Source of the DNA: a virus
Reading direction: 5' to 3' (one strand)
Length of the DNA stretch: 50,985 bases
IMG/VR virus record: IMGVR_UViG_3300022752_002748
Location: 1-50,985 of that record
Within the stretch, counting starts at the first letter, position 1, and each line of letters opens with the position of its first letter. Positions 10,831 through 31,365 of this stretch are shown piece after piece. The translations under genes and the position numbers were made by a program. The notes beneath the pieces are model-generated. The model was given only the letters and a program-made list of their open reading frames with translations, made no database searches and was not told the origin of the DNA.

Positions 10831-13800
10831 TTAAATATTCATTAATTTTTTGAAAACTTTTATTGTTGCCGAATTAGAAGACCCCATTTGTATTCTTAAA
10901 CGAACTTCATTTGTATTTATAACAACAGTATAAGTTCCTAATGCCTGATTATTATATAATAATGCATATTCACTAAACTGGGCCTGCGATCCATTATGTA
11001 AAACCATAAGTTCTGAAACTTGATAATTATTATCTTGTGTGATCTGTATCATATATTTGGCACTTCGATATAGTGTTTTATCCCAAGTATCTATAATAAA
11101 AACGTTTGTTGTACTGACAACAAGAAAAAATCCTGTATCTAAGCTAATACCTGTACCTTGGCTTATAATACTTACATTACCTTCGATGGCAACATTTATA
11201 AATGTTTTATTAGTAAATGTTTGCTCACCTGTTGTAGTTACAAGTGTGCCGGTGGTAGGTAGTGTTAAACTAGTGTCATCAGTAAGAGTAAATTGTAAAT
11301 TTCTACTTTGATTTGTAATATTACTAACAGTGTATAATCTTCCTACTGTTGATATTTCACCCCCAACTGCAATTGCGAAATTATTATTAACTCCTGTACC
11401 ACCTTTACTGCTAGGTACTACTCCAGTATAATTAGTAGGATCTAAGTAATAGCTTCCCGGCTGTCCGTTTAATTTTATAGCATCAACTACACCATCTTTA
11501 ACAAGAACAGCACCTGAGCCATCTGTGGACACATCAAATTGATCTTTTAAGAATCTTGCTACACCTAAATTTGTGTAAATTGCATCCCCAAGATCGCCTG
11601 CTACTCTTTCTATATCAATTTCTACATTTCCGTAATAGCCACTGCTGTCACCACTGGCTAAAAAGAAAAGAGGTCCATCTGCTGCTTCTCGTATAGATTG
11701 TACTGCCGGAACCCAATTACTATCACCTCGTAGGAATGTATCTGTATTAGCATAACCTGCTGCGGCTAAACGAGAAGTTGATATAACTCCACTTACTATA
11801 TTACCAGCATCTATGTCGGTTGTACTGATAACTGTCCAATTATTGGCATCGCCTGACGCAGTGTTGACCGTAGAGATAATACTAACATCATAGACAAGAA
11901 TATTTGTATTACCTGTAGCAGCACTAAGATTTAAAGGATTGATGGTCAATCCATTTATACTATCAAGTGCATCCGATTTAAGTACATGTAAGCTAAAATT
12001 ATTAGCAGTAACACTACCTACATAATAAAAATTATTTAGAAACTTTACGGCTGTTCCAGTGTCGAGTCCGTGATTAGCTACTCTTATGGATTCGAGCTGC
12101 GTACTTAGAATTTTTCTAATAAAATACTGCGTTCTAGCTGAATCCACAGGAGCTACAATATCTATTATACTAGATAATGCATAATTGGTAGATAACTGAA
12201 AAGTATTAGCTGTTAAAACACTGACATAGTATTCTGTAGAATTTACCAGTCCTTGTATAGGTAAAGAAAAATTTGTATCATATGTAACTATGTCTCCATC
12301 TGTAAGTCCATGACTTGTTATAGTGAAAATATTATTAGTGTAATCTACATTAGACACAGTATTAAAACTACTTGTAGTCGAACCTCCTTGGTCAATAGTT
12401 AAAGTACTACTTGTATTATCTCTAATATAATCTATATTAGTGCTGGAAGCTGTGAAAGAAGAGCTTGACGAGTCACGTATTACATACAGTCTACTTTCAA
12501 CAACTGTTACCGTTATAAAGGCCTGTACTCCTCCAGCAGACTTTCCTCCTATACTAGCATTGGGTAAATTTATTGTAGAGTTAACAGCATATCCTTTACC
12601 TCCTCTAACAATATCAACACTTGTGACTGAATTATTAGATACAGTTATATCAGCAAAAACTCCAGATCCAGCTACTAATTCTACATTATAATAAACGCCA
12701 TTGGTTGTATACCCATTACCTTGACTTGTCAAAGCTATAGCAATAATAATACCTGTTCTATAATCATAAATTCGCCCAATACTGCCATTCAAAGAATTGA
12801 CTTGACCGTTATAGGTAAAATCATAAGTTCTTCCGCTGGCTAATACCAAGTACTGTGAATCCGAATCTTTTTTGAGGAAATAAGGTAAGCTGGAAGATAC
12901 AGGGCTGGCAACAGAATTTACAGTATAAGTTAAATTTTTACTTAAATTAACTATAGATCCAGCAGTGAAAATATAGTTATAATTTGAACTACTGTTAAAG
13001 TTATAAAGCCCTAATTCAGTGACACCACCAAGACCTACAAAAACAGGAGTACCAAAAGAAAACAAATAAGTTACTTGAAAAGAAAATGCACTAATTAAAT
13101 TAGATGCACTACGAATTTTGTACAAAACATATCTGCTGGGACTATTCTTCATCCTTATGCTAATAGTATGTCCTACTGCAATGGTTGATAGTAAAGCAGT
13201 ACGATCAACACCATCATAATCAGTGACATTAAAAAGCAGTTCATTTGCACCACCTATAAATTTTTGGTCGACATTGTTGAAAGTTCCAGGAGGGGCATAA
13301 TAGCTGCTGATTGAAGTATAAAACCAAGATCCTAAAATAACATTACTAGAATTTCCAAAAATTCCCAATGAGTTACCCTTGGTCACTGTAATTGTATTAG
13401 AACTAGTTACAGTACCTTTAAGCAATCCATAAGCGCCAGTAGATGCTTGATAAATTACATCTCCATCACTACCTGTTAAATTAGTAGATAAAGTCAAAGT
13501 TTGTTGTGTAAATTCTTCTGTAACTAAATCTCCGCTGTTTAAATTATTAGCCGGAATATCTTCGTATTCAAGGAATCTTGAATTATACCCTTCTGTGATA
13601 ATACTTTGGAAACTATTTGGTATAGGCAATAAATCACTGTTAATCTGTCCTTGGGCGTTTAATTGAACCACAGCACCAGGTTCACTATTAGTGCTGACCT
13701 TTTTACCAATGAATGTACCTAGGTTGTTGGTAATAAAACTACGAATGGCCTTTTGAGTAGTAAGTCTATTATTACCAGGACCACCTATTTCATTTCCGCC

Positions 13801-16800
13801 TAAATCTGGATCAATACTAATAGTATCAATTACTACATCACTAAACGCCAATTTAATAACAGCAAGTTCAGCGATGTTAACCTGATTCTTAAATGTAATA
13901 GTTCCTGTTCTGTTAAAAGCAACAATAAAGTCTCCAACTTTAAAGTCACCTAATTCATTGGTTCCTGAACTGTAAACCCGACCAGGTAATTCTACATATT
14001 GTTCATAGATAACATTGCCTTTACCTCCGTTTTGAGGTAAAGCATTATAGTCTATACCACTACCTGCATATTCCCAAGTATGACTACTACTGTTAACAAT
14101 ACTGGGTCTATGTAAAAAACTAACCTTACCTTTAAGGTCTTGACTGTTATCAAAACTACTGCCCGCTTTTGTAGACAATACTTTAATTTTATTTGTATAA
14201 TATTGTGTAGTGCTTAAAACATTTGTAACAGAAACATTTACAGTTGGTATTGGAGCATGATCAGCTAAAATAGTACTACTGGAAGTATCATTAAACGGAC
14301 TTCTATAAGTTATGCTGCCTATGGTTACTAATTCAATACTGACAATAAGTTTATAATTAGTAGGATCCCAATAATACACATAGGCCTTTACTGGACTACC
14401 TCCACTTATAGCGTCGATAGATCGCCCTCTTACAAACGTATAAGACCCAGCATTAAGTGTTAATATTTGATATGTGTTGTGACTTTCTAGTAATCCTTCC
14501 ACAAATAGTTCTTCTACATTACTCAAGAACTTATGTGTACCTGAACCTAATTGAAAGAAATCAACTCGTACTTTGAAACTTTCATCAAAATATAATCTTA
14601 TGGTATTAGGAGTTAAGACTTCGGCATAATATGTCTGTCCTGCATCTAACCCGGCTATTTTAACATTACCATTAGGATCATATTCTAAACTATCGCCCGA
14701 AGTCAAATTATGATCTGTACTAAATGTAATAATATCAGTGGCTGTATTAATATCAACCGCAGCATCAACTAAGTACTCAGTAGGAATATCTTTATAATTT
14801 CCTGTTATCTCAGCTGTATCAGTATGAGTTGCGTAGATTGTGCATGACGCAGTTGTATTTGTATAATTTACACGGTATGTTCCAAGACCATTAGAACCTG
14901 TTAACACTCCGGGCTCTTCAGCGGCTGTGGCCACGATAGTAGTTCCTGGCCTTATAGTATGAGCACTAAGTATAGATCCCACGCTGAGTCCTGGTCCTAT
15001 GACTTGTATTGAACTGACCGTTAAAATATCGTCGGCGATACTGCCGGTAAATTGAACTTGATTTTCTCTAACTCGTATAATATAGTGTTCAATAGCTTCA
15101 TGACCCATGCCAACCATAGTCAAAGTCTGCTGAAAATTACCTCCGGTGGTACCAACATCAGCAAAAATACCTCTATCAATCACGAAAGCATTTGGACTAT
15201 AACCACTGGCTCTCAAAGCGTATATACCAAAGTTTGTAGCACTGTTAGTTACTGATAGATATCCACCACTTTGAGCAAAACATCCATTTAACATAAAGAT
15301 TTGGAAGCAGCTAACTATCTGTGCATAAGCATCATTGATTAATCGCCAACCTGTACCTCCAAAACTTAACATAGTAAAGGCATTGGCCACAAACGATTTA
15401 CCCTGTTCAGGTATACTGCCAACTACTGGTCTTTCTTGTTCTTCAGGAATTCCTGGTGTAAGATTAGGCACTGCTACTAAATTACCATCAATAATAGCTC
15501 CATTACCACCCATGAAACTTATTACAGAAACATTCTGAATATATGGACTTTGTGTAATAATAGGTTTGGATAACGGTAAACGGTCGTAGGTCCATCTATC
15601 TATGCTAGGGTCATTGACATCATCAAAGGCAGTGGCGTAATCAAAAGTTCTAACTGGCACACCACCTACAATACCGTCTCTAAAAGTGAACTCTCCGAAG
15701 TAAGCTCCATTACGACAGTTTAGCATGTTTAGTCCAGGATTTAAAGGACGCATAATAACGCTACGCAAACTATCTCCGACCACGGTGACATTATCAGGCA
15801 CAATTAGAGGATTGTCTTCTTCGTAATCACCAGCAGTTACACATACAGTGATTTTGGTGCTATTAGGTTTATAATTACTTGCCGTAGCGACTACTCTATA
15901 TTTGATCTTGGCTAAGTTAGAGGTTTGAATTAAAATCTGTCGTAGAGCATATTCATTTTCAGTGGCAGTTGGAAGTACCGGAGCAGGTATACTAGACGGT
16001 CCTTCTCTTAGACCAGTAATTATTATATTGAATAAGGTATTTACAGTATCAGTTTCTAAACTACTTACAGGAGTTGCTGCTACTCTTGTTTCACTGCTGA
16101 ATGTCTCAGCAGGTCCCAGATTCATTATAACTCTTTTAACTAGGTAATTAGCATATTCATAGGCTACAGCAGAGGCTTCTGCTTCTCCAGGATTGACTAA
16201 AGCTCCGACTCCATAGGCATAATATTTTCTTGCGGCATCTGTAGTTTGACTATCACCTCCGTAGATTATATCGTATGCTATACCTCTTAAAATAAACTCT
16301 ATATCTCTTTGACACTTAGCAACATCATAGGTAAATTGATCGAAAGCAGTATAGATATAACTGCTTACATCTTCAACAATTACTGCTGTATTATCACTAA
16401 TTGCTTCATAGTCTTGTTGTAAAGCAGCAGTAGTCCAAGTTATCACAGGGTATTGTGTAGTAGGCAGACCAGATAAACTTGCTGCATTAATAACATTGAT
16501 TGTGATGCTAATTAAACTATTAGCAACATTGGCCTCTGTTATCGAAGCTGTGAGATGTGTTGTATTATCTTGTGTTAGGGCATTACCAGAAGTTTTTGTA
16601 ATTAAAATACCTCTAACAACATTACTGACCACTGATGCTAAATGTGTAAAAGCTTGCACAGTGGCAGAAATTTCGCCAGCTTGAGAGATAACAGGAGCAG
16701 TTCCTACAAAATATGCTGTAGCAACTTCTATGGATGCAGAGTTCCCTCCATAAAGAATGTCATAACATAGAGCATCGACAATATAACCAGTATCTCTACC

Positions 16801-18267
16801 ACAGACATTTATATCTATTCCTGGAGGTGGATTATTGGCAGTTACGAATGCTACAACCTCGGCCTTTATAAATTCTTTGTTTATAATTAGCTGATTCTTA
16901 GCATTTATTGCATTATTACTTGCATTACTAGGATTAGTATAAACAAGACTGTTTGCCGCTAGTGCTCCATTATCAAAAATGTCAACAACTTCATTAATAG
17001 CATTAGTATATCTTGTTTGAAATATAGTATTTTGAGTATAAGGTAAAGATAATTCTATTATCTTTTTAATAGCATATCTAGTTTGAATATTTTGACTGCC
17101 TAATACATAGGCACTATTTTCTCTTGTATATGCTAACCCAGCTGTTATTGAATTATAATTTGTATTGAGTACGCTATCGTATATAGCAGCCTTAATGATC
17201 TTTGTTACATCTCGTTCACACTTAACTACAGTCGGCCCATTATATACAAAACCAACTAACTTGTCATTAATCCATCCTGCTACTTCTTCTGTTATATAAG
17301 GAACATTTGCTAGTATAGCATTTTTAGCATTTTGTTGATCCACAGTGCTACCTGTTGGATTAGGCATTGACAAATATGTTTGTACATTATATTGATTAAC
17401 TCCATTATCAAATATATTGATAATTTCATCTAATCTATTACTTAAAAAAGTTTCAGCTGCACCAGTAATACCGGGTAAAGCTAAAGTCAATGTTTTTAGT
17501 TGTTCTAATGCGGCAAGAGTCACAGCTTTTTGTGTAGTTGTAACTGCACTAGCGGTAGCATTATAATAAGTCAATCCTGCTTTTAAGCTTTGCCAGTTTC
17601 CGCCATAAGTAAGATCATAGCCTATACCTCTAAGTATTAATTCAATATCTCGTCGACAAGTATCTTCATTGTAAACAAATGTCTGGTCATAAACTAGACC
17701 ACTAGCAATCTGTAGTCCTCTTTTTACAGTTCGAACCGGAGCAGTTATTCCATCATTGTTATCGTTGCCTTTGAGAAAACTTACATAAATTCTGTTACCA
17801 CCAAACGTGTCAGCATCTTCAAAAGTAAACCCACCTTGACCGTCACTTACCAAAGTCTGGCCAAGAGTAGCAGGAGCATTAGGTAATACAAAAGTGTAAG
17901 ACTGACTAAGATCGTCTGGTACCTTAAACTGTACAAAATTTTGGCCGTTATCTGGATCTTCTTGTAACTTTATTGACTCATTTACAATAATCTCTTTATT
18001 AAATGTAGTTTTATCAATTGTAGAATTAAAAACTGCTACACCATCAACAATATTATCAATTCGACCATCATTTCCTGTATCAGTTACAAGAACCTTTGTA
18101 TTTCTTTGAAATATACTTTGTGTTATATCGCTTACACTATTATCATCTTTTCTTAGATAAATTTTTCCATCAGCGGTGTTAACTGCTAATTCACCAGGTT
18201 CAAGCTGATTAGGTGTAGGTACATTACCTGATATACTACTGCGTTTATGTTTAATCTTAGTTGCCAT
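10831..18267 (-). CDS. Giant fibre/structural protein, 2478 aa, with CxRD repeats and beta-helix
   Basis: ATG at 18267 with AGGAAAG upstream. The N-terminus (KIKHKRSSISGNVPTPNQLEPGELAVNTAD...KIYLRKDD) has the phage fibre N-terminal pattern also seen in Mtd-like proteins. Four copies of a CxRD...YD..YGG...A..YY module lie at about residues 200, 350, 489 and 652. A beta-helix entry follows at about 805-840 (ITVCVTAGDYEEDNPLIVPD). Next come a 'TGSIADDILTVSS...GTYRVNYT' module (about 1075-1140), a GRVYSSGTNELGDFKVGDF module (about 1428) and TTQKAIRSFI (about 1500). Then there are 'HGL..GD' repeats, LNGQPGSYYLDPTN, and LPTTGTLVTTTGEQTFTNKT near the end. No signal peptide or enzyme active site is evident. 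Most of these modules recur in the 3922-residue protein on the other strand. It is likely a long tail fibre or other large virion component. Confidence 0.85.
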   Translation of the reverse strand: MATKIKHKRSSISGNVPTPNQLEPGELAVNTADGKIYLRKDDNSVSDITQSIFQRNTKVLVTDTGNDGRIDNIVDGVAVFNSTIDKTTFNKEIIVNESIKLQEDPDNGQNFVQFKVPDDLSQSYTFVLPNAPATLGQTLVSDGQGGFTFEDADTFGGNRIYVSFLKGNDNNDGITAPVRTVKRGLQIASGLVYDQTFVYNEDTCRRDIELILRGIGYDLTYGGNWQSLKAGLTYYNATASAVTTTQKAVTLAALEQLKTLTLALPGITGAAETFLSNRLDEIINIFDNGVNQYNVQTYLSMPNPTGSTVDQQNAKNAILANVPYITEEVAGWINDKLVGFVYNGPTVVKCERDVTKIIKAAIYDSVLNTNYNSITAGLAYTRENSAYVLGSQNIQTRYAIKKIIELSLPYTQNTIFQTRYTNAINEVVDIFDNGALAANSLVYTNPSNASNNAINAKNQLIINKEFIKAEVVAFVTANNPPPGIDINVCGRDTGYIVDALCYDILYGGNSASIEVATAYFVGTAPVISQAGEISATVQAFTHLASVVSNVVRGILITKTSGNALTQDNTTHLTASITEANVANSLISITINVINAASLSGLPTTQYPVITWTTAALQQDYEAISDNTAVIVEDVSSYIYTAFDQFTYDVAKCQRDIEFILRGIAYDIIYGGDSQTTDAARKYYAYGVGALVNPGEAEASAVAYEYANYLVKRVIMNLGPAETFSSETRVAATPVSSLETDTVNTLFNIIITGLREGPSSIPAPVLPTATENEYALRQILIQTSNLAKIKYRVVATASNYKPNSTKITVCVTAGDYEEDNPLIVPDNVTVVGDSLRSVIMRPLNPGLNMLNCRNGAYFGEFTFRDGIVGGVPVRTFDYATAFDDVNDPSIDRWTYDRLPLSKPIITQSPYIQNVSVISFMGGNGAIIDGNLVAVPNLTPGIPEEQERPVVGSIPEQGKSFVANAFTMLSFGGTGWRLINDAYAQIVSCFQIFMLNGCFAQSGGYLSVTNSATNFGIYALRASGYSPNAFVIDRGIFADVGTTGGNFQQTLTMVGMGHEAIEHYIIRVRENQVQFTGSIADDILTVSSIQVIGPGLSVGSILSAHTIRPGTTIVATAAEEPGVLTGSNGLGTYRVNYTNTTASCTIYATHTDTAEITGNYKDIPTEYLVDAAVDINTATDIITFSTDHNLTSGDSLEYDPNGNVKIAGLDAGQTYYAEVLTPNTIRLYFDESFKVRVDFFQLGSGTHKFLSNVEELFVEGLLESHNTYQILTLNAGSYTFVRGRSIDAISGGSPVKAYVYYWDPTNYKLIVSIELVTIGSITYRSPFNDTSSSTILADHAPIPTVNVSVTNVLSTTQYYTNKIKVLSTKAGSSFDNSQDLKGKVSFLHRPSIVNSSSHTWEYAGSGIDYNALPQNGGKGNVIYEQYVELPGRVYSSGTNELGDFKVGDFIVAFNRTGTITFKNQVNIAELAVIKLAFSDVVIDTISIDPDLGGNEIGGPGNNRLTTQKAIRSFITNNLGTFIGKKVSTNSEPGAVVQLNAQGQINSDLLPIPNSFQSIITEGYNSRFLEYEDIPANNLNSGDLVTEEFTQQTLTLSTNLTGSDGDVIYQASTGAYGLLKGTVTSSNTITVTKGNSLGIFGNSSNVILGSWFYTSISSYYAPPGTFNNVDQKFIGGANELLFNVTDYDGVDRTALLSTIAVGHTISIRMKNSPSRYVLYKIRSASNLISAFSFQVTYLFSFGTPVFVGLGGVTELGLYNFNSSSNYNYIFTAGSIVNLSKNLTYTVNSVASPVSSSLPYFLKKDSDSQYLVLASGRTYDFTYNGQVNSLNGSIGRIYDYRTGIIIAIALTSQGNGYTTNGVYYNVELVAGSGVFADITVSNNSVTSVDIVRGGKGYAVNSTINLPNASIGGKSAGGVQAFITVTVVESRLYVIRDSSSSSFTASSTNIDYIRDNTSSTLTIDQGGSTTSSFNTVSNVDYTNNIFTITSHGLTDGDIVTYDTNFSLPIQGLVNSTEYYVSVLTANTFQLSTNYALSSIIDIVAPVDSARTQYFIRKILSTQLESIRVANHGLDTGTAVKFLNNFYYVGSVTANNFSLHVLKSDALDSINGLTINPLNLSAATGNTNILVYDVSIISTVNTASGDANNWTVISTTDIDAGNIVSGVISTSRLAAAGYANTDTFLRGDSNWVPAVQSIREAADGPLFFLASGDSSGYYGNVEIDIERVAGDLGDAIYTNLGVARFLKDQFDVSTDGSGAVLVKDGVVDAIKLNGQPGSYYLDPTNYTGVVPSSKGGTGVNNNFAIAVGGEISTVGRLYTVSNITNQSRNLQFTLTDDTSLTLPTTGTLVTTTGEQTFTNKTFINVAIEGNVSIISQGTGISLDTGFFLVVSTTNVFIIDTWDKTLYRSAKYMIQITQDNNYQVSELMVLHNGSQAQFSEYALLYNNQALGTYTVVINTNEVRLRIQMGSSNSATIKVFKKLMNI

Positions 18268-18287
18268 GTTACTTTCCTATATAGGGT

Positions 18288-18333
18288 GGGTCAGACCTTT
18301 CGGTGCCCAAGGGTCAAGACTTTTGTCGCCCAA
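18288..18333 (-). promoter_or_regulatory. Two tandem, covarying RNA hairpins between giant genes
   Basis: Two abutting 23-bp units (18288-18310 and 18311-18333) start right after the stop codon of the 3441-residue gene. In the transcript each unit can fold as GGGC, a 3-bp inner stem, an AAAA or GAAA loop, then YUGA and CCC. The inner stems are GAC/GUC in one unit and ACC/GGU in the other, so two base pairs are changed on both sides while pairing is kept. The ribosome site of the 2478-residue gene lies just downstream. There is no U tract, so it is not a standard terminator. Candidate roles are a protein-binding site, an mRNA processing or stability element, or translational control. Confidence 0.55.
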
Positions 18334-21300
18334 TTAATAACTTCCGCCATCTATCACATCTGTCCAGATTGGTACATTATTTACATCTGTTGTTAATACT
18401 CCATAACTTGTTGTCTGATTTGAAACTCCTGGATCGCTTGCTGCTGTAACTTGTAAAGGATTGCTTCCATTACCATATAAAATGCCTTTAGAAGTGAAAG
18501 AACTTACACCTGTTCCACCATATTCGACTAGTAAATCAGTAACTAATGTTACTTCTCCAAAGTGCCCTTTGGCAAATCTCTTGGTTAGTTCACCAAGGTT
18601 ATGTGTCATATTAACATTAGGAACAATATTAGCTCTTGTAATAATGCCATTTTCAGCGATAATGTCTGATTCAAAATTTACGCTTGGAGTAATACTGATA
18701 CCTGAACTGTCAGTAGTATCAATATTGTTGCCTGAAATAGCAACTGTTTCTAAATTAATCCTTCCTGTTCCGTGTGCAGTAAACACAAGATCTGTGTTAC
18801 CTGACACTGTTGTAATAGAATTAGTATTAATGGTTAGTTGACTGTTAACTTGTATAGTACCAGTTTGCTTGGTATCAGCAAGTAGTAATATATTACCAAC
18901 ACCCTGTGTATTAATTTCAAAGTCACTATTACTAGCAGTGGTTTCTATTCTATTACCGACAATTTGTATATCATCTGTTCTTAAAGGACCACCATTAATA
19001 TCACCTGTAAGATTTAACGAACCTCTAATTTCCACATCTCGCTTGGCAATTATATTACCTTCGATAACCATACCTCTAGCAATGTTTACACTACCTAGGT
19101 TTGATGTTCCTAGATAATTTAATTGTGTATTAAAATTAGCAATGTTTATTGTGCTAGCGGCTCCGACGAAATTTAATGTTTGTACAGTATTATTAAGTAG
19201 ATTAAAAGTTGTTTTATTAGTCGTTAAATCACCACCCTTGACCTGTAGGTCGCCTAGCAATACTACATTATCGTTATTAATAGTATAAACACCGTTGTTT
19301 CCAGCTGCTCCAGTATTAATTGTTTCAGCTGCTCCAAAAGCATTCACTGTTGTAGCCACAGTATTAAAAACATTTTGTGTAGTTTGAGATCCTACTACGG
19401 TGGGATTATTAATTTCTAAAGTACCACTATCAGCACCTATCTCTATAGTTGTAGCTGCCAAGAAAGCATTAACTGTTATTGCAGTTGTAGCAAACACATT
19501 CTGTAAAGTTGACGATCCTACTAGTGTTCCACTATTAATAGTTGTTGTACCACCTGCGTTACTGCCAATGTTTACATTTGTTGTACTACCAGCAGCTCCA
19601 CTAGTACCAAGGTTTATAGTTTTAGTAGTAGCACTTGCTGTAATTCCTGTACCAAAATTATATGTACTTGCTGCTGTACTTGCATTACCAATGTTTATTG
19701 TCTGTGCCGCAGCAGCATTACCTAGATTTAAAGTAGTAGCAGCATTACTTAAATTTAATGTAGTAATATTAGTATTGAAAATGTTAGCAGTTCCACTAGC
19801 TTGATCACTTGTTATGGTAGGAGTTGGGCCATTCATATTGAATGTAACACTAGTGGCATTTGATTGCGTAATTACAGGATTACTAATTGTCACTGTGCCT
19901 GTGCTGGCACCAATATTAATACTAGTTGCAGCTCTAAACGCATTCACAGTGGTAGAATTTGTGTCAAATACATTAGCAGTAGCAGCATTTGTTACCACTG
20001 TTGCGGTGCCTGAAGTGGAATTTCCTCTAATTGTTAATGTAGAATTACCTGTAGTAGTTCCAATATTAACTAAGGCAGCAGCACCGCCTATGTTAGTAGT
20101 ACTTGCTCCACCTGTTGCTAGATTGACTGTACCAGTGGTTACTCCTGTATAAAGATTCACCGTACCAGTAGTAATATCACTGGTTAAATTTATAGCCCCA
20201 GCTTGAGTACTATTAATTTCAAATGTGTTATTTGAATTGAGACTTGAACCTAAAGTTAGTGTAGTAGCAGTAGTAGCATTTAATGCAATATTAATAGCAG
20301 TACCAACACCAAATAAATTAGCTGTTAATATCTCTGTATTGAACAAGTTTGCTGTAGTAACACCAGCATTAGTTCTTATAGTTGTTATACCTGTAGTAGC
20401 ACTACCTCGGACTTCTAATACACTATTCGCTGTAGTAGTTCCAATATTAACTAAGGCAGCAGCACCGCCTATGTTAGTAGTACTTGCTCCACCTGTGGCT
20501 AAGTTGACCGTACCAGTAGTAACTCCTGTATAAAGATTTACAGTACCAGTAGTAACATCACTGGTTAAGTTTATAGTACCACTACCATCAGTTCTACTGT
20601 TAATCTTAAATATGTTACCTGTGATATTAGCACCACCAAACGTCAATGTGCCTGCACTAGTAGCAGCTATACCGACATTTACACCAGTGCTTGCTCCAAA
20701 TATATTTCCTGTAGTAACATATGTGTTTAATAAATTACCAGTTGTTACTCCAGTATTGGTCCTAAGTTCTACAGTTCCAGTAGTACCATTACCTCTCAAC
20801 TCTATGATACTATTGCCTGTAGTAGTTCCAATGTTGAGTATAGCAGCAGCACCGCCTATGTTAGTAGTACTTGCTCCACCTGTGGCAAGGTTGACTGTAC
20901 CAGTGGTTACTCCTGTATAAAGATTTACAGTACCAGTAGTAACATCACTGGTTAAGTTTATAGTACCAGCTGCGGTACTATTAATTTCAAAAATATTACC
21001 TGTTATAGTAGGACCAAATGTCAATGTACTTGCACTTGCTGCACTTACTCCAACATTAACTGCTGTAGCCGCTCCTCCTAAGTTTAAAGTAGTAGCATTA
21101 GTATTAGCTAGATTAAAGGTGGTGGTGCTTACTATTAGATCACCACCGTCAATATTCACATCGCCGTCTACATCTAAATTGTGATTTATATTGGTAGTAC
21201 CTGTACTTGCACCAATTTCAACAATGGTAGCAGCACCACCAAAATTAATTGTAGTAGCAGTTGTATTAAATAAATTCTGTGTGGTCAAAGCACCGACAAT

Positions 21301-24300
21301 AGTCCCACTATTGATTGTAGTTGTTCCTGCTACACTGCTACCAATATTAACATTAGTTGTACTTGCTGTAACTCCACCAGTACCAAGGTTTACTGTTTTT
21401 GTTTTACTACTAGCGGCAGGAGCAGTAGCAAAATTATATGTACTTGTATCAGTACTAGCATTACCAATACTAATTGTCTGAGCAGCAGTAGAATTACCTA
21501 TGTTTAATGTAGTGGCTGCACCAACAAAGTTTACTGTGGTAGCTGTTGAATTAAACAAGTTAGCTGTAGTCATTGCTGTGACTAAGTCTAGTGTTGTATT
21601 TGTACTGCTTGGACTTATGCTCATTCTATCGGTGCCGGTTTGAAGAACAGTTCCAGTTGTCAGTGTTGTACCTGTAGTAAATGTAATTGATCCACCTGTG
21701 GCATTTCCAGTACTAAGTCCACCTTGCAACAGTAAATTAGCAGCACTGACATTAGTTCCTGCCCCGTCCGTTCCTCTAAGTATTCTAGCACTTGGAGTAG
21801 CAGAACTAGCATCATTTCCTAAAACTATATCAGTTCCTGGATTTAATACTAGATTTGCTGTACCATTAGTTATCAAGTAGGCCGTGAGGTTATTATCTCC
21901 TAGCCTAAAAGTATCTGCATTAACTTGGAAATCTCCAGTTCCATGAGGTTCTACTACAATATTACCATTGGTTCCTTGATTTATTAAAATATAGCCTGCA
22001 CTAACTTTAGTTGTAGTTCCTATATTTGTAGTGTATGTAGCTGCTGTTAAGGCTGTTGATATTACAAATGTAAATGAATTAGCACTGGCGGTAGCTACTG
22101 TCCATGTTCCGTTCAGCTTAGATTGTTCAGTGGTTGTTGCCCCACTAATAGTAATAATATCACCTGCCACTAATCCGTGAGCATTAAGGTTGCCTGTAAC
22201 CGTGGTTGTACCAGCACCAACATAACTTGTAATAGCTAATACAATACTATTACCTGTTTTTAATGTTAGGTTCGATTCTCCATTACTAGTTATATATGTA
22301 TCACTATTACTATCCCCTACTCGCAGTGTATCTGCATCAAGATATACATCACCTGTTCCATTTGGAGTTAACACAATATTACCGTTCACGCCATTGTTAA
22401 TTACAATAGTTCCACTATTAGTTCCATTATTAGTGCTTAATGTAAGATTAGAATTTCCTTGAGTAGTTATTGTAGAAGCAATGTTATTTGCTCCAACTTG
22501 TAGTGTGGTACTATTTAATTTTAGTGTTTGAACGGCAGCATTACCTGCTATCATTTGTCTAATAACAAAGTCAAAATCTTCTGTGCTAGAATTAATATCA
22601 GTGGTTATAGATTCTATAGTAGCACCAATCCTATTAACACCATCAGTGGTTTCAGTAATTAATTGTATGCCTGTGCCGATTCCTAATTGAGGAGTACCTG
22701 TTGTACTATGTACTAGTTTTATAGGAAAACTAACGGTATTAGTATTTGCATCATTAGTAGTAAAGGTTAAAGTGTTTGGTATGGCCACCGAATCGGCATT
22801 AATAGTAACTGTGTCAGTACTTGCATTGCCCAAGGTTGTATTACCATCTACTGTTAAACTGTGATTAATACTGGTTGTACCATTAGTAGAGCCAATCTCA
22901 ATATTTGTAGCGGCACCAAATAAATTAGCTGTAGTAGCTTGTGTATCGAAAACATTTACAGTGGCCACTCCGCTATTAGTTCTAATAGTAGCTATACCCG
23001 TAGTAGCATTACCTCGAACCTCTAAAACTGTATTTCCACTAGTATTTCCTAAATTAATTGTGCTTCCACCACCACCTATGTTAGTAGTACTTGCTCCACT
23101 TGTGGCAAGGTTGACTGTACCAGTGGTCACTCCTGTATAAAGATTCACAGTACCAGTAGTAACATCACTGGTCAAGCTTGTAGTACCTCCTGCTATACCG
23201 CTTATTTTAAATATATTGCCTGTTATAGTAGGACCAAATGTCAATGTACTAGATGCAGTGGCACTTTTTCCTAGATTTAAAGTTGTTGCTATGTCAGCAA
23301 AGTTTACAGTGGTTGCACTAGTAGGTAATAGATTAAATACTGTTTGATTGGTGGTAAGATCTCCGCCTTTTACTTGTAGGTCACCGTCAAGTGTTACATT
23401 ATCATTTTTAATAGTCAAAACACCGCTACTACCACTATTTCCAATATTAATAGTTCTAGCATTTCCAAATAAATTACCAACTAGATTGTTTGTATTAAAC
23501 AGGTTAACAGTTTCTACGCCTAGAGTAGTTCTAATAGTAACATTACCTGATATAGTATTTCCAACTAGTTCTAGTGTAGAATCAAGAGTGTTTCCACCAA
23601 TAGAAACTAAAGTTCCACTCCCACCAATATTAATTGTAGCAGCACCACCATTGGCAATATTGACTGTTCCTGTGGTAATACTAGGAAACAAATTAACAAC
23701 ACCGGTTATTACATCAGTGGTCAAAGAAATGTTACCGCTAGGAACTGAACTTATCTTGATTTGATTATCACTTACACCATTACCAAAAGTTAAAGTGCAA
23801 GCTGCTGATGCATCTCTAGCTAGATCAATAGTAGTAGCTTCTCCAAACAATTTTCCTACTGTAACATACTCATTGAAGATTCTAGCTTCTGTTCCATATT
23901 CATTAGTAGAGAGTTCAGCAACACCTGTTCCGTCTGATTTAGAAGAAATTAAAAGAGTACTATTACCTGAAGTTGTTCCCACTGTTAAGACAGAATTAGC
24001 TCCTCCTATGTAAGTAGAACTAGCTCCACCATCTGCTATATAAAGTGAACCAGTAGTAACACTTCTAAAAATATTAACGTCCCCAGTTGTTACATTTGTA
24101 GTAAGATTTACAGTACCTGAGGATGTACTTGCTATTTTTATTGTATTACCTGGAGTTACTGCTGTACCTATAACAAATACTAAATCGTTCAATGGAGTTG
24201 ATCCTCCCAAATCAGATCCTAATAAAGTTATTGTATCACCGACTTTGTATCCAAAACCTCTTTGTACAAGAGTAATTGTTACATTACCGAAATAGTTGGT

Positions 24301-27300
24301 ATCGTTTCCAGTCTTAACAATATTAAATGTTGCTCCCCCTCCGGTACCACCTGATGTGCCGCCGCCAATTGCTCCTCCTGAGCTATCTACTACATTATTA
24401 TATGTGCCTGGAGAAGATATACTAATACCGGCAGGAGAATCAAATGTAGTTACACCTGGTATTAAAGCACCACCTGATAAAATATTACCGAAAATAAATT
24501 GTCCGTCAAGTGCAGCACCAGAAGCAATATTCAATGTTTGTGATGTGCCTGCAAAATTTACTGTGGTAGCATTAGTCTGTAGTAAATTAAAAGTGGTCTG
24601 GTTAGTAGTTAAATCTCCACCATTTACTGCTAAATCACCGGCAAGTAATGTATTTCCACTAGCCACATATACAGCATAAGGATTTGTAATTGTAGTGTTT
24701 GTGCCTGCAAGAGGAGCATTCGCAACATATAGTGTAGCAGCATTAGTTAATGTTACAGCATTAGTACTAGCAAAAGTAGGTTGACCTAGGCTATTTGATA
24801 CTCGTATTGGTATAGTAGTACTAGCAGTTGACGAAGTATCAGTAAATGTAGATCCAATATCAGCAATACTAATACCTGTGGTAGTCCAACTACTAGTGGA
24901 TATTGCACCTGTCCTCGCTAGACTACCGCCAATGTAGGTGTTTTTCGCTATACCAAGACCGCCATCTATGACCACACCTCCGGTGGTAACACTGGTGCTG
25001 TCTTTAGTTGAATTTAAATTGATAACTGCTGTGGCTCCAGTTGAGCCAATGTCCATCGTAGTAGCAGCAGCAGCAAAATTTACTGTGGTAGCATTAGTCT
25101 GTAGTAAATTAAAAGTGGTCTGGTTAGTAGTTAAATCTCCACCTTTTACTTGTAAGTCACCTTCTATAACTGTATCACCTACACTGCTTACACTGAACTT
25201 GGTACTAGCAGCAGCACCAGCAGCCATAAGTTTAAGGTTAAAGCTAAAATCTTCACTGCCGCTGGTCACATCAGTAGAAGCAGCTTCTAATATCATACCG
25301 GTACGATTAGTGTCATTGGCTGTTTCAGTTACAAAAGTAATACCTGTTCCAATACCATTGGCTGGAGTACCTGAAGTAGTATGTCTTACAGTAAGTGGAG
25401 ATGACACACTGCTATTCGACGCATCATCTATGGTTAAAGCACCACCTAATACAAAGTCTCCAGATAATGTAGTTGATCCATTAATTGTAATTGTGTTATT
25501 GCCAGTAGGATCAATTGTAATTCCGCCAGCCTGAGTAGAAATAGTATTACCAGATATAATAATATTACCAGTGGCAACCTGTGTAGGATCAATTACTGTA
25601 GTGTTTGAACCGCTGGTAAAATTAATACCAGTTAGACTAGAAACATCAAAATTAGCTCCGCTGAATGTAACCGCTCCTGTTTCAAAGTCTACACTAAAAA
25701 AATCTCCAATTCTAAAATTACCTTCTTGGTCTACACTTTCATAAAATACTCTACCAGTATTAACTTCAATAACTTCATTAGCCTGATTAACTGTGGCCTT
25801 GTTATTGGTCAAATCATATCCTGTACCTATGTAGGCAAAATTATGAGCCATTAACTGTATAACAACATCGGCTCCATCTGCTTTTACACCTTGATTACCA
25901 TAAACATTAGCACTGCTTATACTACGCATTTCAGCAGCAAATTCTTTACGATCGTAGCGAGTAATACCTGTGGCTGTTCCACCACCACTGGATCTAATAT
26001 CTTGAATAGTAACTCCATCATCAACAATCACTGTACTACCATTAGACCCATTAAGATGTAATAACAATACAGTATTAGAATCACCAACAAAAGCTGAAGC
26101 AGGCTGTGTAAAATTACTTGTTCCGTACTTGGCTACACCCTTGACGATCCTTACTTCATCAAAGTACCCTGTTGTTGTAAAACTTGTAGCAGTGTAACTA
26201 GTCCCTAATTTAAATGGTTTTGAACTACCATAGTCTCCTGAATCTGTATATGTAGTAGACACTGTTCCATTCAAAGCCACTCTAGTATCAGTTCCAGATC
26301 TGTATATTGCCACATGATTCCATGCTGCTGCGGTGCAGGTGTTTGAGCTTGTAATACGATAAGATCCATTTACAAATAATCTTAAATTACCAGCACTATT
26401 CATTTCAATATAAAGACTAACTTCCGTAGCTGTGGTTCTCATGTCTAATAAAACTTGTTGCGTACCTATAGCATCTGGCTTCCAAAAGAATTCTACAGTG
26501 AAGTTGCCTGTTCCGAACCCAAAATCAGGATCATTTATTAGACTAATATAATCACTGCTGGCTGAGGCAATTCTTAAACTACTTGCACCAAATTTAGGAG
26601 AAGTTGTGCTTAACTGGGCACTGCCATGGACCAAAACAGTTTTATTATCACGATTAGCATTGGTTTTAAAACCGCTTACACTACCGTCTAAAGTGTAGGT
26701 ATTTCCACTAATAGCTTCTATCACTCCTTGAGCTAGAATAGTTGTTCCGTCATTGGCGTAGTATCTCAGTGAGTTACCAACATTCCATGTGCCTGTAGTG
26801 CCTGTGAGACTGATATAAGTTTTACCATCGGCTCCACGACCACTGGCTCCTACTACACCTTCTATGGCTAGATCAGCAAAATATGTAAAACAGTTTAACC
26901 ATTCGGTACGAGCTCCGTTAGTCATAATACAAGCACGACTATTAGGTACAATAAAGGTACACTCATTAAAAAGTATAGCTGCTTCTAAACTGGCACGAGT
27001 GACACGACTACCATCTATATACACTCCGCGACCTGCATTAGCACTAACGAAACCATAAGGGTCACTTGCTGTTACTGTAGATCCTTTATTAATCACAGTA
27101 ACACGTTGAATGTAAGGACTACGACTTGCAACAGTTACAGTGGCAGCGGTATTAAATCTAAAAGCATAACCTGTATTAGCTCCGCTGTTATAGAACATGT
27201 CAGCAATAGTTAATTCTTCGACTGTAGTTTCTCCGTTAAGCAAAAAGCAATCATTAGAGTTTGTTCCCGCAGTAGGTTTAAGCATAGTGCTACGTATACC

Positions 27301-28659
27301 ACTTCCTCTAACTGTTACACCCTGAGGAATTGTCAAAGGAAATACTTCTGTATAAGTTCCTGGTAAAATCTGAATGGTATCACCGCTGGCTGCTTGACTA
27401 AGTGCATATGCCACTGTAGCAAACGCAGTATTCATTCTACGGCCATCATTTGTGTTACTACCATTAGTAGCACTTACGAAAAATGTGTCTGTGTTTGCTG
27501 CTAACCAATTTTGTGTTCCTATTATTAAAGTACCTGTACCGTTAGGAACTATTTCTATGTTAGCATTAGCACCATCAAAAATCTTAACATAACCACTATT
27601 TGTTCCGCTGTTAGTGTTTAATGTAAGGTCACCTGTACCATTTGTAGTTAATACTGCATCACTATTGCTGTCCCCGATTCTAACTGTATCGCCGTCTAAG
27701 TTGACATTTCCAGTTCCGTTAGGAGTCAATGTAATATCACTATTAGCTGCGATGCTGCTGATTGTTGTGGTATTAACATTAAGTCCATCAATAATAAGAT
27801 TGCCGGTACCGTTAGGAACTATTTCTATGTTAGCATTAGTACCATCAAAAATCTTTATATAACCACTGTTTGTTCCACTGTTGGTGTCAATAGTAAGATC
27901 ACTAGTTCCTTGAGTTGTCAGTCTTAAATCAGTATTATTAGCACCTACTTGAATAGTATTAAAATTTAACTTCAATGTTTGAGCAGGAGCAGCACCTGCT
28001 ATCATTTGTCTTATGACAAAATCAAAATCTTCACTGGCAGCTGTGGTATCAGTGACCACACTGGCAATCTGTAATCCTATTTCATTATTGTTTGCAGTTG
28101 TTTCTGTAATAAACTGAATACCAGTGCCTATACCGTTAGCTGGTGTTGCTGTTGTAGTATGACTAAAAGATACAGGATAAATGATACCGTTATTAGTTGC
28201 ATCATCTTTGGTCAAAGTAATAGTATTAGGCGTACTGATAGCTGTACCATTAATTGTTATTGTATCTGCTGCGGTATTTCCTAATATGGTATTTCCATCT
28301 ACTGTTAAATTATCTTGCACTCTTAAAGAGTCTGTAATATAAACTTGGCCAGATCCATTGGCACGAATCTCTAAATCAGCATTACTATCTGTTAGTTGTA
28401 TAACATTGGTATCAATATTGAATCCATCGATTTGTATGGCTCTAATAGACAATGTGGCATTCTCATCACCGAAATCATTAAAAATTACTATCTGATCCCC
28501 TGCATTACCTGTGCCAAAACTTATTCCCGGTCCTGCTACTAAAGTTAGCGTATCCGTTACAGCATTGGCAGTAAGCGTAGTTAGCGGAGAGGCTTGTTCA
28601 TTCTGTTTTAGAGTAATATTTCTATAGGTATCTGCTAGAGCTACAGGTTGTAGAGGCAT
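18334..28659 (-). CDS. Giant fibre/structural protein, 3441 aa, with beta-helix, LamG domain and tandem repeats
   Basis: ATG at 28659 with AAGGAT upstream. Layout: an N-terminal beta region (1-380) with 'NGTGNLIIDG' / 'TLRLGDSNSD' type units. A pectate-lyase-like beta-helix follows at about 383-600 (FFVSATNGSNTNDGRRMNTA...TIQILPGTYTE...IPQGVTVRGSG). A concanavalin/LamG-like lectin domain lies at about 673-885 (GASSLRIASASSDYISL...FTVEFFWKPD...WNHVAIYRSG...YFDEVRIVKG...LLLHLNG). The module GRVFYESVDQEGNFRIGDFF is at about 970. Residues about 1450-2950 hold six units of roughly 125 residues with 'TSDVTTGTVNLYTGVTTGTV' and 'NLATGGASTTNIGG', plus five 'LQVKGGDLTTNQTTFNLL' units. The C-terminus is a conserved-looking fibre end (GGTGVSSFTSKGILYGNGSN...WTDVIDGGSY). 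It is the first gene of the minus block. Host binding by the LamG-like domain is inferred. Confidence 0.85.
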   Translation of the reverse strand: MPLQPVALADTYRNITLKQNEQASPLTTLTANAVTDTLTLVAGPGISFGTGNAGDQIVIFNDFGDENATLSIRAIQIDGFNIDTNVIQLTDSNADLEIRANGSGQVYITDSLRVQDNLTVDGNTILGNTAADTITINGTAISTPNTITLTKDDATNNGIIYPVSFSHTTTATPANGIGTGIQFITETTANNNEIGLQIASVVTDTTAASEDFDFVIRQMIAGAAPAQTLKLNFNTIQVGANNTDLRLTTQGTSDLTIDTNSGTNSGYIKIFDGTNANIEIVPNGTGNLIIDGLNVNTTTISSIAANSDITLTPNGTGNVNLDGDTVRIGDSNSDAVLTTNGTGDLTLNTNSGTNSGYVKIFDGANANIEIVPNGTGTLIIGTQNWLAANTDTFFVSATNGSNTNDGRRMNTAFATVAYALSQAASGDTIQILPGTYTEVFPLTIPQGVTVRGSGIRSTMLKPTAGTNSNDCFLLNGETTVEELTIADMFYNSGANTGYAFRFNTAATVTVASRSPYIQRVTVINKGSTVTASDPYGFVSANAGRGVYIDGSRVTRASLEAAILFNECTFIVPNSRACIMTNGARTEWLNCFTYFADLAIEGVVGASGRGADGKTYISLTGTTGTWNVGNSLRYYANDGTTILAQGVIEAISGNTYTLDGSVSGFKTNANRDNKTVLVHGSAQLSTTSPKFGASSLRIASASSDYISLINDPDFGFGTGNFTVEFFWKPDAIGTQQVLLDMRTTATEVSLYIEMNSAGNLRLFVNGSYRITSSNTCTAAAWNHVAIYRSGTDTRVALNGTVSTTYTDSGDYGSSKPFKLGTSYTATSFTTTGYFDEVRIVKGVAKYGTSNFTQPASAFVGDSNTVLLLHLNGSNGSTVIVDDGVTIQDIRSSGGGTATGITRYDRKEFAAEMRSISSANVYGNQGVKADGADVVIQLMAHNFAYIGTGYDLTNNKATVNQANEVIEVNTGRVFYESVDQEGNFRIGDFFSVDFETGAVTFSGANFDVSSLTGINFTSGSNTTVIDPTQVATGNIIISGNTISTQAGGITIDPTGNNTITINGSTTLSGDFVLGGALTIDDASNSSVSSPLTVRHTTSGTPANGIGTGITFVTETANDTNRTGMILEAASTDVTSGSEDFSFNLKLMAAGAAASTKFSVSSVGDTVIEGDLQVKGGDLTTNQTTFNLLQTNATTVNFAAAATTMDIGSTGATAVINLNSTKDSTSVTTGGVVIDGGLGIAKNTYIGGSLARTGAISTSSWTTTGISIADIGSTFTDTSSTASTTIPIRVSNSLGQPTFASTNAVTLTNAATLYVANAPLAGTNTTITNPYAVYVASGNTLLAGDLAVNGGDLTTNQTTFNLLQTNATTVNFAGTSQTLNIASGAALDGQFIFGNILSGGALIPGVTTFDSPAGISISSPGTYNNVVDSSGGAIGGGTSGGTGGGATFNIVKTGNDTNYFGNVTITLVQRGFGYKVGDTITLLGSDLGGSTPLNDLVFVIGTAVTPGNTIKIASTSSGTVNLTTNVTTGDVNIFRSVTTGSLYIADGGASSTYIGGANSVLTVGTTSGNSTLLISSKSDGTGVAELSTNEYGTEARIFNEYVTVGKLFGEATTIDLARDASAACTLTFGNGVSDNQIKISSVPSGNISLTTDVITGVVNLFPSITTGTVNIANGGAATINIGGSGTLVSIGGNTLDSTLELVGNTISGNVTIRTTLGVETVNLFNTNNLVGNLFGNARTINIGNSGSSGVLTIKNDNVTLDGDLQVKGGDLTTNQTVFNLLPTSATTVNFADIATTLNLGKSATASSTLTFGPTITGNIFKISGIAGGTTSLTSDVTTGTVNLYTGVTTGTVNLATSGASTTNIGGGGSTINLGNTSGNTVLEVRGNATTGIATIRTNSGVATVNVFDTQATTANLFGAATNIEIGSTNGTTSINHSLTVDGNTTLGNASTDTVTINADSVAIPNTLTFTTNDANTNTVSFPIKLVHSTTGTPQLGIGTGIQLITETTDGVNRIGATIESITTDINSSTEDFDFVIRQMIAGNAAVQTLKLNSTTLQVGANNIASTITTQGNSNLTLSTNNGTNSGTIVINNGVNGNIVLTPNGTGDVYLDADTLRVGDSNSDTYITSNGESNLTLKTGNSIVLAITSYVGAGTTTVTGNLNAHGLVAGDIITISGATTTEQSKLNGTWTVATASANSFTFVISTALTAATYTTNIGTTTKVSAGYILINQGTNGNIVVEPHGTGDFQVNADTFRLGDNNLTAYLITNGTANLVLNPGTDIVLGNDASSATPSARILRGTDGAGTNVSAANLLLQGGLSTGNATGGSITFTTGTTLTTGTVLQTGTDRMSISPSSTNTTLDLVTAMTTANLFNSTATTVNFVGAATTLNIGNSTAAQTISIGNASTDTSTYNFATAPAASSKTKTVNLGTGGVTASTTNVNIGSSVAGTTTINSGTIVGALTTQNLFNTTATTINFGGAATIVEIGASTGTTNINHNLDVDGDVNIDGGDLIVSTTTFNLANTNATTLNLGGAATAVNVGVSAASASTLTFGPTITGNIFEINSTAAGTINLTSDVTTGTVNLYTGVTTGTVNLATGGASTTNIGGAAAILNIGTTTGNSIIELRGNGTTGTVELRTNTGVTTGNLLNTYVTTGNIFGASTGVNVGIAATSAGTLTFGGANITGNIFKINSRTDGSGTINLTSDVTTGTVNLYTGVTTGTVNLATGGASTTNIGGAAALVNIGTTTANSVLEVRGSATTGITTIRTNAGVTTANLFNTEILTANLFGVGTAINIALNATTATTLTLGSSLNSNNTFEINSTQAGAINLTSDITTGTVNLYTGVTTGTVNLATGGASTTNIGGAAALVNIGTTTGNSTLTIRGNSTSGTATVVTNAATANVFDTNSTTVNAFRAATSINIGASTGTVTISNPVITQSNATSVTFNMNGPTPTITSDQASGTANIFNTNITTLNLSNAATTLNLGNAAAAQTINIGNASTAASTYNFGTGITASATTKTINLGTSGAAGSTTNVNIGSNAGGTTTINSGTLVGSSTLQNVFATTAITVNAFLAATTIEIGADSGTLEINNPTVVGSQTTQNVFNTVATTVNAFGAAETINTGAAGNNGVYTINNDNVVLLGDLQVKGGDLTTNKTTFNLLNNTVQTLNFVGAASTINIANFNTQLNYLGTSNLGSVNIARGMVIEGNIIAKRDVEIRGSLNLTGDINGGPLRTDDIQIVGNRIETTASNSDFEINTQGVGNILLLADTKQTGTIQVNSQLTINTNSITTVSGNTDLVFTAHGTGRINLETVAISGNNIDTTDSSGISITPSVNFESDIIAENGIITRANIVPNVNMTHNLGELTKRFAKGHFGEVTLVTDLLVEYGGTGVSSFTSKGILYGNGSNPLQVTAASDPGVSNQTTSYGVLTTDVNNVPIWTDVIDGGSY
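19800..24170 (-). repeat. Long in-gene tandem repeat array (about 125-aa units)
   Basis: Six related units are encoded here; the centres of three adjacent ones lie near 20.1, 20.5 and 20.9 kb, about 385 bp apart. The most conserved DNA segments (20069-20190, 20449-20580, 20838-20970 and 23058-23180) encode GGASTTNIGG and the adjacent TGTVNLYTGVTTGTVNLAT and differ at only a few positions. Units near 23.4-24.1 kb are more diverged. The array can be expected to expand or shrink by recombination. Confidence 0.75.
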
Positions 28660-28679: not shown

Positions 28680-28687
28680 TATTTATT
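28680..28687 (-). promoter_or_regulatory. Possible T4-type late promoter for the minus block
   Basis: On the minus strand the octamer reads AATAAATA, one mismatch from TATAAATA, 21 bases upstream of the ATG of the 3441-residue gene. It is placed as expected for a late promoter in this short divergent region, but with one mismatch in AT-rich DNA it is weak evidence. Confidence 0.4.
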
Positions 28688-28692: not shown

Positions 28693-28700
28693 TATAAATA
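28693..28700 (+). promoter_or_regulatory. T4-type late promoter (TATAAATA)
   Basis: An exact TATAAATA octamer lies 20 bases before the ATG at 28721. This is the sequence used by the T4 sigma factor gp55. It would drive the accessory metabolic genes to its right with a leader of about 14 nt. There is only a weak ribosome site (GGAC) before the first gene. Confidence 0.7.
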
Positions 28701-28720
28701 TTTATTATTGGACAATTTCT

Positions 28721-29386: not shown

Positions 29387-29875
29387 GTGGCAAAGTTTAT
29401 TAGCACTAAAACATACAGACACTTAGGACCGGTAGCATATCGTCAATGGCGGGCAGATAGTCATTGTAACCTAATCCACGGATATGCTCTTAGTTTTCAT
29501 TTCGAGTTCGAATGCGACACATTAGATGCTCGCAATTGGTGTATGGACTTCGGTGGATTAAAAAATCTAAAACATAATTTAGAAGATTGGTTTGATCATA
29601 CACTATTAGTTGCCCAAGACGATCCCCAGCGTGAAGAACTATTACGGTTGGGCTCATTAGGTTTGGCTAAAATCACTGAGGTAGAAAAAACAGGCTGCGA
29701 AGGTATTGCAGACTTTTTATACGAATATGTAAATACCATTTATCTTCCCAGCTTTGGCAAAGGTGAAGCAGAACGTGTTTGGTGCTGTCGAGTAGAAGTT
29801 CGCGAAACAGACTCAAACATGGCCATGCGTATAGGTCATAGAGAAGACAGAGAATATGATAACACAAATACATGA
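29387..29875 (+). CDS. queD: 6-carboxy-tetrahydropterin synthase-like protein (QueD/PTPS family)
   Basis: 162 residues from a GTG start. The sequence FISTKTYRHLGPVAYRQWRADSHCNLIHGY is followed by NWCMDFGGLKNLK, WFDHTLLV and VEVRETDSNMA. These are the family's Cys-x3-His-Gly segment, 'DFxxLK' element, catalytic 'DH' pair and C-terminal Glu motif. The second zinc-ligand His of canonical QueD (HGH) is Tyr here (HGY), and the first FxAAH motif is replaced by YRQWRADSH. I recall the 'FRQWRAxSHCxxLHGY' form from alphaproteobacterial members of this family. The expected role is conversion of dihydroneopterin triphosphate to carboxy-tetrahydropterin on the path to preQ0, used for queuosine or for phage DNA modification. 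No other preQ0 genes are in the window. Its end overlaps kdsA by 20 bp. Confidence 0.8.
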   Translation: MAKFISTKTYRHLGPVAYRQWRADSHCNLIHGYALSFHFEFECDTLDARNWCMDFGGLKNLKHNLEDWFDHTLLVAQDDPQREELLRLGSLGLAKITEVEKTGCEGIADFLYEYVNTIYLPSFGKGEAERVWCCRVEVRETDSNMAMRIGHREDREYDNTNT

Positions 29876-30677: not shown

Positions 30678-31365
30678 GTGGATTGTATGTCTTAAACATG
30701 GGGACAAGTATTCGTCTGTTTATGTAAACAGATTGTATAATATGACTAGACGCCATAGCAAAACTGATTTTAAATTTGCCTGCTTGACTGAAAATAGTTC
30801 AGGATTAGATTCAAATATTGTTATTATTCCGCTACCACCAGTAGACTTAGTAGGGTGGTGGTACAAAGTTTGGATATTTGATAGTAATTTTCCATTAAAA
30901 GGGGAATTGCTATATATGGACTTAGATATTGTTATTATTAATAACTTTGATCATATGTGGAATTTCGAACCAGATAAATTTTGTATCATACGGGACTTTA
31001 ATAGAAAGTTTATAAGTAATTACGAAAAATTTAACAGCAGCATTTTTAAACTAAAAACTGGTTCATTCTCACATGTTTGGAACAATCTTAAAGTTAACCC
31101 AGACATGATGCGTAGACTTCATGGGGATCAAGATTGGATTTTTAAGCAGATTAAATCTAATTTTACCTTTTGGCCTGAAGATTGGATTCAAAGTTATAAA
31201 TGGGAAATAAGATCAAAAAATGATTTAATTGCAGAAAATGGCAAAAGAAAATTTAAAAATATAGCCGCACCATTTATTAAAAATGACACAAGTTTTCTCG
31301 TATTTCACGGAGACCCTAAACCTGAAGATGTAAAAGATCCAATTATTGTTGACAACTGGCAGTAA
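30670..31365 (+). CDS. GT-A fold glycosyltransferase-like protein
   Basis: 231 residues; ATG overlaps the kdsA stop by 8 bp, so the two are coupled. The N-terminal strand WIVCLKHGDKYSSVYVNRLYN is followed by FACLTENSSGL and VGWWYKVWIFDSNFP. The metal-binding DxD is in LLYMDLDIVII (Asp84-Leu-Asp86). FNSSIFKL and HGDQDWIF (about 149-156) fit the acceptor and catalytic elements of GT8-like enzymes, as does the late His in FLVFHGDPKP. No membrane segment. With KdsA directly upstream it could add a sugar to surface glycan or a virion protein. Donor and acceptor cannot be read from the sequence. Confidence 0.78.
   Translation: MDKWIVCLKHGDKYSSVYVNRLYNMTRRHSKTDFKFACLTENSSGLDSNIVIIPLPPVDLVGWWYKVWIFDSNFPLKGELLYMDLDIVIINNFDHMWNFEPDKFCIIRDFNRKFISNYEKFNSSIFKLKTGSFSHVWNNLKVNPDMMRRLHGDQDWIFKQIKSNFTFWPEDWIQSYKWEIRSKNDLIAENGKRKFKNIAAPFIKNDTSFLVFHGDPKPEDVKDPIIVDNWQ

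Follow-up and report, generated by a model that had tools for sequence, protein, structure and literature searches.

Two short tandem repeats lie between two giant fibre genes on a 50,985-nt stretch of viral DNA (IMG/VR record IMGVR_UViG_3300022752_002748, positions 1 to 50,985; hereafter the window). Are they a chance repeat or a selected RNA structure, and, if selected, which gene do they serve and at which step? A preliminary description placed two abutting 23-bp units here, and its coordinates and account of them hold. On the minus (mRNA) strand, the spacer carries two 21-nt hairpins, each preceded by UU, which gives the period of 23. The features of the locus are as follows.

28680-28686 and 28699-28705, minus strand: nearest ATAAATA late-promoter-like sites, upstream of the 3441-aa gene
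18334..28659, minus strand: upstream giant fibre gene, 3441 aa, C-terminus ..VIDGGSY (ORF list; PHROG tail-fibre matches)
18311..18331, minus strand: distal hairpin unit, GGGC GAC AAAA GUC UUGA CCC (exact motif match; covariance model R1, 30.2 bits)
18309..18310, minus strand: UU spacer of 2 nt separating the units (sequence)
18288..18308, minus strand: proximal hairpin unit, GGGC ACC GAAA GGU CUGA CCC (exact motif match; covariance model R1, 26.2 bits)
18275..18285, minus strand: Shine-Dalgarno hairpin CCUAUAUAGGA, 3 bp, CCU-AUAU-AGG, its 3' arm being the Shine-Dalgarno AGGA
10831..18267, minus strand: fibre gene downstream of the hairpins, the putatively controlled gene, 2478 aa (ORF list; homologues; PHROG)

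The order in the window mRNA is UAA, UU, GGGCGACAAAAGUCUUGACCC, UU, GGGCACCGAAAGGUCUGACCC, ACCCUAUAUAGGAAAGUAAC, and AUG (18267). The distal unit begins 2 nt past the UAA (18336-18334) of the 3441-aa gene, and 20 nt separate the 3' end of the proximal unit from the ATG (18267) of the 2478-aa gene. No late promoter was found between the two giant genes, and no terminator-like site (a G+C-rich hairpin with a U tract) was found over 18150-18450; the 3441-aa gene is probably co-transcribed with the 2478-aa gene. The N-terminus of the 2478-aa protein (MATKIKHKRSS..GELAVNTADG) matches PHROG tail fibre and long tail fibre distal subunit N-termini. Elsewhere on the window, an auxiliary block lies amid the giant fibre genes (29387-33330, plus strand) and encodes a QueD-like PTPS, a DAHP synthase, a glycosyltransferase, a UvdE-type UV endonuclease, and an Fe/Mn superoxide dismutase. 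A 3922-aa protein is encoded at 34015-45783 (plus strand), and its N-terminus matches the T4 baseplate wedge and tail-fibre connector (phrog_677, phrog_958).

The two hairpins are the only exact matches in the window to the motif of the preliminary description. The predicted fold of the leader comprises both hairpins and a third, CCU-AUAU-AGG, on the Shine-Dalgarno sequence. Two inner pairs differ on both sides between the copies (G-C to A-U and A-U to C-G), as had been reported. The fold energy of the window leader is ordinary (z = +0.78 against shuffles). Two copies in one genome are therefore no proof of selection, stability is uninformative, and comparison must decide.

Relatives were sought in IMG/VR. 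The hairpin lies just upstream of the start codon in all 10 close homologues of the 2478-aa N-terminus. Homologous phages lacking the structure, named earlier as the outcome that would speak against it, proved to be the exception: in a protein-anchored sample with no condition on the RNA, the motif lies within about 60 nt of the ATG in 38 of 39 homologues, and in the lone exception (L215) the stop and start codons overlap. A DNA pattern without protein or pairing condition returned 93 stretches, every distinct one of which precedes a fibre gene whose protein has an M(A/S)TxIxHKRS-like N-terminus. With a tandem pattern that set no condition on the neighbouring genes, 35 viral stretches were returned, and both inner stems are present in 19 of the 27 distinct matches. 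All tandem-pattern stretches with paired inner stems lie between a fibre gene ending in (I/L)DGG(S/T)(Y/F), once TGGTY, and an HKRS-type fibre gene; the remaining viral stretches have no stems and were set aside as chance. When the same pattern was run on 84,980 cellular genomes (at least 118 distinct matches), both inner stems were found in none of the 118 listed, and these matches were likewise attributed to chance. Scans for the GAG variant and for a 2-nt spacer added one more real case, with the gene context unchanged. As far as sequence comparison reaches, specificity for this one fibre gene is established.

A separate observation concerns the ends of the consecutive fibre genes, which are conserved: (I/L)DGG(S/T/E)(Y/F) upstream and MxxxIxHKRS..GELA(I/L)NTADG downstream (window 18334-18360 and 18220-18267, both minus strand, and many loci in L182-L291). 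The pair is present also in phages without the hairpins and is perhaps a docking pair. The distal parts of the consecutive fibre genes differ widely among relatives.

The units found in the IMG/VR scans share the general form RRGC-[3-11 bp stem, any loop]-YUGA-YYY. We collected 65 real distinct units, leaving out one further listed unit that is a chance match; their inner stems are 3-11 bp long and change freely in sequence. The outer pairs covary as well: the helices GGG/CCC, GAG/CUC, and AGG/CCU occur, with GGG/CUC in one case. Loops are variable (GAAA, GCAA, GUAA, UUCG, UAUA, and others), many being the stable GNRA or UUCG types, so that the A-rich loop, at first given as a feature of the unit, is local to the window genome. 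The search motif proposed with it, with its NAAA loop and 3-bp inner stem, was too narrow. In L004 the distal copy is degenerate (GGGUGACGAAAGUGUUAGCCC), evidence that decay can affect distal copies and spare the proximal one.

Covariation was computed on an alignment of 32 sequences, with shuffles and slid partners as controls. In this alignment 100% of the pair cells are paired and five of the six pairs show changes on both sides. Paired substitutions no more frequent than chance had been the other adverse outcome named in advance; 28 double-change cells were counted vs. 6.3 in shuffles. The covariation score is 0.447 against 0.158 in shuffles, and the signal collapses once partners are slid. 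In all 93 stretches from the pattern without a pairing condition the inner stem is 3 bp or longer, and each of their 21 distinct inner sequences has three or more terminal pairs (shuffles: mean 1.5, maximum 6). Among close relatives with cleanly aligned flanks, whole inner stems are swapped (GUCUAG/CUAGAC, GCCAGG/UCUGGC, GGCAAG/CUUGCC) while GGGC, YUGACCC, and the GCA spacer stay unchanged. Non-Watson-Crick inner pairs comprise five G-U and three U-U and no A-C; since the irregular pairs are of these kinds and never A-C, the mRNA strand is the folded form. The internal loop, C opposite YUGA, is constant in all units found, but its invariance is less firmly supported than the helices because the search patterns demanded most of it. 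A kink-turn was considered and rejected, as YUGA has no tandem G.A partner. A chance or low-complexity repeat is ruled out by the relatives and the covariation. The claim that structure and not sequence is selected is borne out by covariation far above both shuffled and slid controls, and the hairpins are almost certainly a selected mRNA structure.

A covariance model built from the units was run on 41 records, some of them 330-383 kb long, and one locus per contig was found in 40. In G007 the unit seen by pattern fell below the model cut-off, and in G013 there was one extra marginal match (E 0.09). The major capsid gene gp23 is present in 24 of 34 contigs, including all of at least 56 kb; the carriers are therefore T4-type phages, as had been guessed. 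The three largest carriers (G016, G031, and G032, 330-383 kb) each encode a bS21-like ribosomal protein, and none above cut-off was found in the smaller fragments carrying the element. Eleven named isolate records with related fibre genes gave four weak matches to the covariance model and no convincing copy. The two better matches lie within CDS annotated as single-strand DNA-binding protein and as major capsid, the Mosig match overlaps an annotated small CDS, and the S-PRM1 match (14 bits), judged from the raw sequence alone, does not look like a real copy. A different leader occupies the equivalent place in S-CAM9, S-PRM1, and S-8S55 (L295-L297) and in three further loci (L244, L247, and L248), with CCGAUAAAUAUCGG followed by AGGUA..UACC; this leader of cyanophage isolates and IMG/VR contigs is possibly an analogous element.

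In a script count of 74 distinct fibre-gene starts, a single unit precedes 55, a pair 10, and a triplet 9. In 73 of the 74, 15-26 nt separate the proximal unit's 3' end from the ATG; the outlier at 59 nt is the L251/L262 leader, in which the script skipped a proximal unit visible in the sequence. The gap between units is 3 nt in 26 of 28 cases and 2 nt in the window. The first unit follows the upstream stop by 0-121 nt. Since the distance to the ATG is constant and that to the stop variable, the place of the element is tied to the downstream start codon and not to the upstream gene. The preliminary description had listed operator, processing site, and stability element as candidates, and this placement favours translation control. 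The stop-to-ATG distance is 64-167 nt with the element vs. a median of 11 nt without it, where many of the codons overlap.

Essentially all single-copy leaders open with a NATAAATA-type late promoter about 30-40 nt upstream of the hairpin, followed by a second covarying hairpin, the unit, and CCU-N4-AGG on the Shine-Dalgarno sequence. NATAAATA is the late promoter of cyanophage S-PM2 (PMC2984593). The second hairpin, GCGAUUUCUAUCGU, was noted in the single-unit leaders of L182-L220, downstream of the late promoter and ahead of the GGGC unit, close to where the late transcript is predicted to start; its variants are GCAAU..AUUGC, GUGAU..AUCAC, and CACUAU..AUAGUG. The Shine-Dalgarno hairpin shows a compensatory double change in L220, with CCA..UGG for CCU..AGG. 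It is kept in most two-unit leaders and missing from three-unit leaders; this helix is therefore not essential. Read-through of the upstream stop codon into the next gene was rejected, since the window has an in-frame UAG within CCUAUAUAG and others have a UGA within the hairpin.

How might such an element work? It consists of one to three hairpins. In each, a short outer helix is followed by the asymmetric internal loop (C opposite YUGA), which is constant, and by an inner helix of free sequence that would need only to pair. Protein-recognition sites are commonly built in this way, with a constant internal loop flanked by helices free to vary in sequence. The constant loop may be read by a partner, most likely an RNA-binding protein of the phage or host, and tandem copies at fixed spacing could provide cooperative or higher-avidity binding. 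At 15-26 nt upstream of the start codon, the proximal hairpin would stand where the upstream border of an initiating 30S subunit lies; many phages have it directly next to the small hairpin that would hold the Shine-Dalgarno sequence. Binding of the partner might then control the entry of ribosomes, so that the giant fibre gene would be translated at a rate and time of its own. Homologues without the element mostly have touching stop and start codons, so its role seems to be to exchange coupling to the upstream gene for separate control.

We infer protein binding and translation as the regulated step, with either repression or activation as the outcome. These parts differ in strength. An effect of the element on translation of the fibre gene downstream is likely. 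Whether a specific protein reads it is an even call, and the same balance applies to the full reading as a cis-acting leader element of the fibre mRNA, an operator for fibre-gene translation with a protein-read internal loop. A more specific form is put forward tentatively: a new RNA family in which a dedicated protein of the phage, perhaps a fibre, a fibre chaperone, or a ribosome-associated factor, recognizes the C / YUGA loop of the tandem hairpins and times translation of giant adhesin genes. No match to the RegA family (the T4 translational repressor) was found anywhere, a result that is uninformative. A mimic of an E. coli rRNA site was also sought, and nothing was found (best score 8.8 bits, E 0.9).

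Other readings account for part of the same evidence. The hairpins could direct an endonuclease to the spacer between the giant genes, or shield a new 5' or 3' end, and so allow separate decay. In the window and in the two- and three-copy groups, they do lie in the spacer of co-oriented giant genes, sometimes right after the stop, and the many stable GNRA or UUCG loops fit such a role. We nevertheless consider processing or stabilization unlikely, as the single-copy group keeps the hairpin behind its own late promoter, where cleavage is needless, the distance is kept to the ATG and not to the upstream stop, and a simple barrier would not need a constant asymmetric internal loop. Less probable is a standby site or insulator that works without protein, holding the initiation region open and apart from ribosomes that end the upstream gene. 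The constant ATG distance and the overlapping stop and start codons of homologues without the element agree with it, but any stable hairpin would serve, whereas recognition is suggested by the constancy of the outer bases, by the C / YUGA loop, by the spacing of 3 nt, and by the occurrence of copies in tandem.

The great length of the downstream genes, and the position of the element near the transcript head in the single-copy group, could also suggest a signal at the level of transcription, a put- or ops-like antitermination or pausing RNA that helps polymerase through 7-12 kb fibre genes. This is improbable: the position is tied to the start codon and not to the promoter, the window copies lie between genes with no promoter nearby, and no terminator is seen. 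The probability of these three readings falls in the order given. An element acting as DNA, a cruciform or single-strand hairpin for recombination or module exchange of fibre genes, would suit a junction of consecutive fibre genes with widely differing distal parts; it is very improbable given G-U but no A-C exceptions, which mark one strand, the mRNA, as well as RNA-type loops, the fixed distance to the ATG, and no copies elsewhere in the contigs. Least credible of all is a metabolite riboswitch. Small tandem leader hairpins beside a Shine-Dalgarno sequence are laid out like a small riboswitch, yet the element precedes one structural gene only and no metabolic genes, its constant core is a single short internal loop, and it has no Rfam match.

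With translation control of the downstream gene as the preferred reading, this widespread element of uncultivated T4-type phages would probably serve as a switch or landing site governing the timing and amount of fibre protein production. Post-transcriptional balancing of late structural genes in T4-type phages is poorly known, and the reviewed T4 operators (RegA, gp32, gp43) act on other genes. As an RNA motif the element is compact, strongly supported, and confined to a single defined position; since its natural variants differ in number of copies, stem, and loop, it lends itself directly to the design of binding and translation assays. Recognition by a protein would make it a new RNA-protein recognition module and would show how giant-fibre phages dose their host-recognition proteins. 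If that protein is a dedicated one, RNA would be the level at which a large uncultivated T4-type group sets its output of receptor-binding fibres late in infection. The element suggests, in addition, that Rfam covers the intergenic RNAs of uncultivated phages incompletely.

The earlier remark that no known element matches agrees with the Rfam 15 scan, which gave no match in the window at gathering thresholds and none at E values up to 10 over 18180-18450. No earlier description of the element was found in a literature search that had most subscription journals outside its reach. The Guanidine-II (mini-ykkC) riboswitch also has two small hairpins in a leader, with ACGR loops that form the binding site; here the loops vary freely and the Rfam scan is negative. 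Structured RNAs have been described in potential 5' UTRs of T4-like cyanophage genes (manA, wcaG, and PhotoRC-II; PMC2864571), but these have other structures and precede metabolic or photosynthesis genes, and Rfam detects none of them here. In the T4/RB69 gene 43 operator, too, a hairpin precedes the start codon of a gene in a T4-type phage, and the protein bound to it blocks initiation (PMC3014915). It is, however, a single hairpin read by its loop bases (UAAC) and precedes a DNA polymerase gene, whereas the present element has variable loops, a constant internal loop, and one to three copies before a fibre gene. The pan motif RNA (RF01749), proposed as a dimeric protein-binding motif, consists of leader stems, mostly in tandem, with two bulged A residues and precedes bacterial pantothenate genes (PMC2864571). 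It resembles our element in having short stems interrupted by conserved unpaired bases, arranged in tandem in gene leaders (two units in the window, one to three in relatives), but differs in the two bulged A residues per stem in place of C opposite YUGA, and in preceding pan genes where ours always precedes fibre genes. Because the defining features of the pan motif and the gene 43 operator are absent and Rfam gives no match, the element is best regarded as a new RNA family, though one of a general kind already known, the leader hairpin of operator type.
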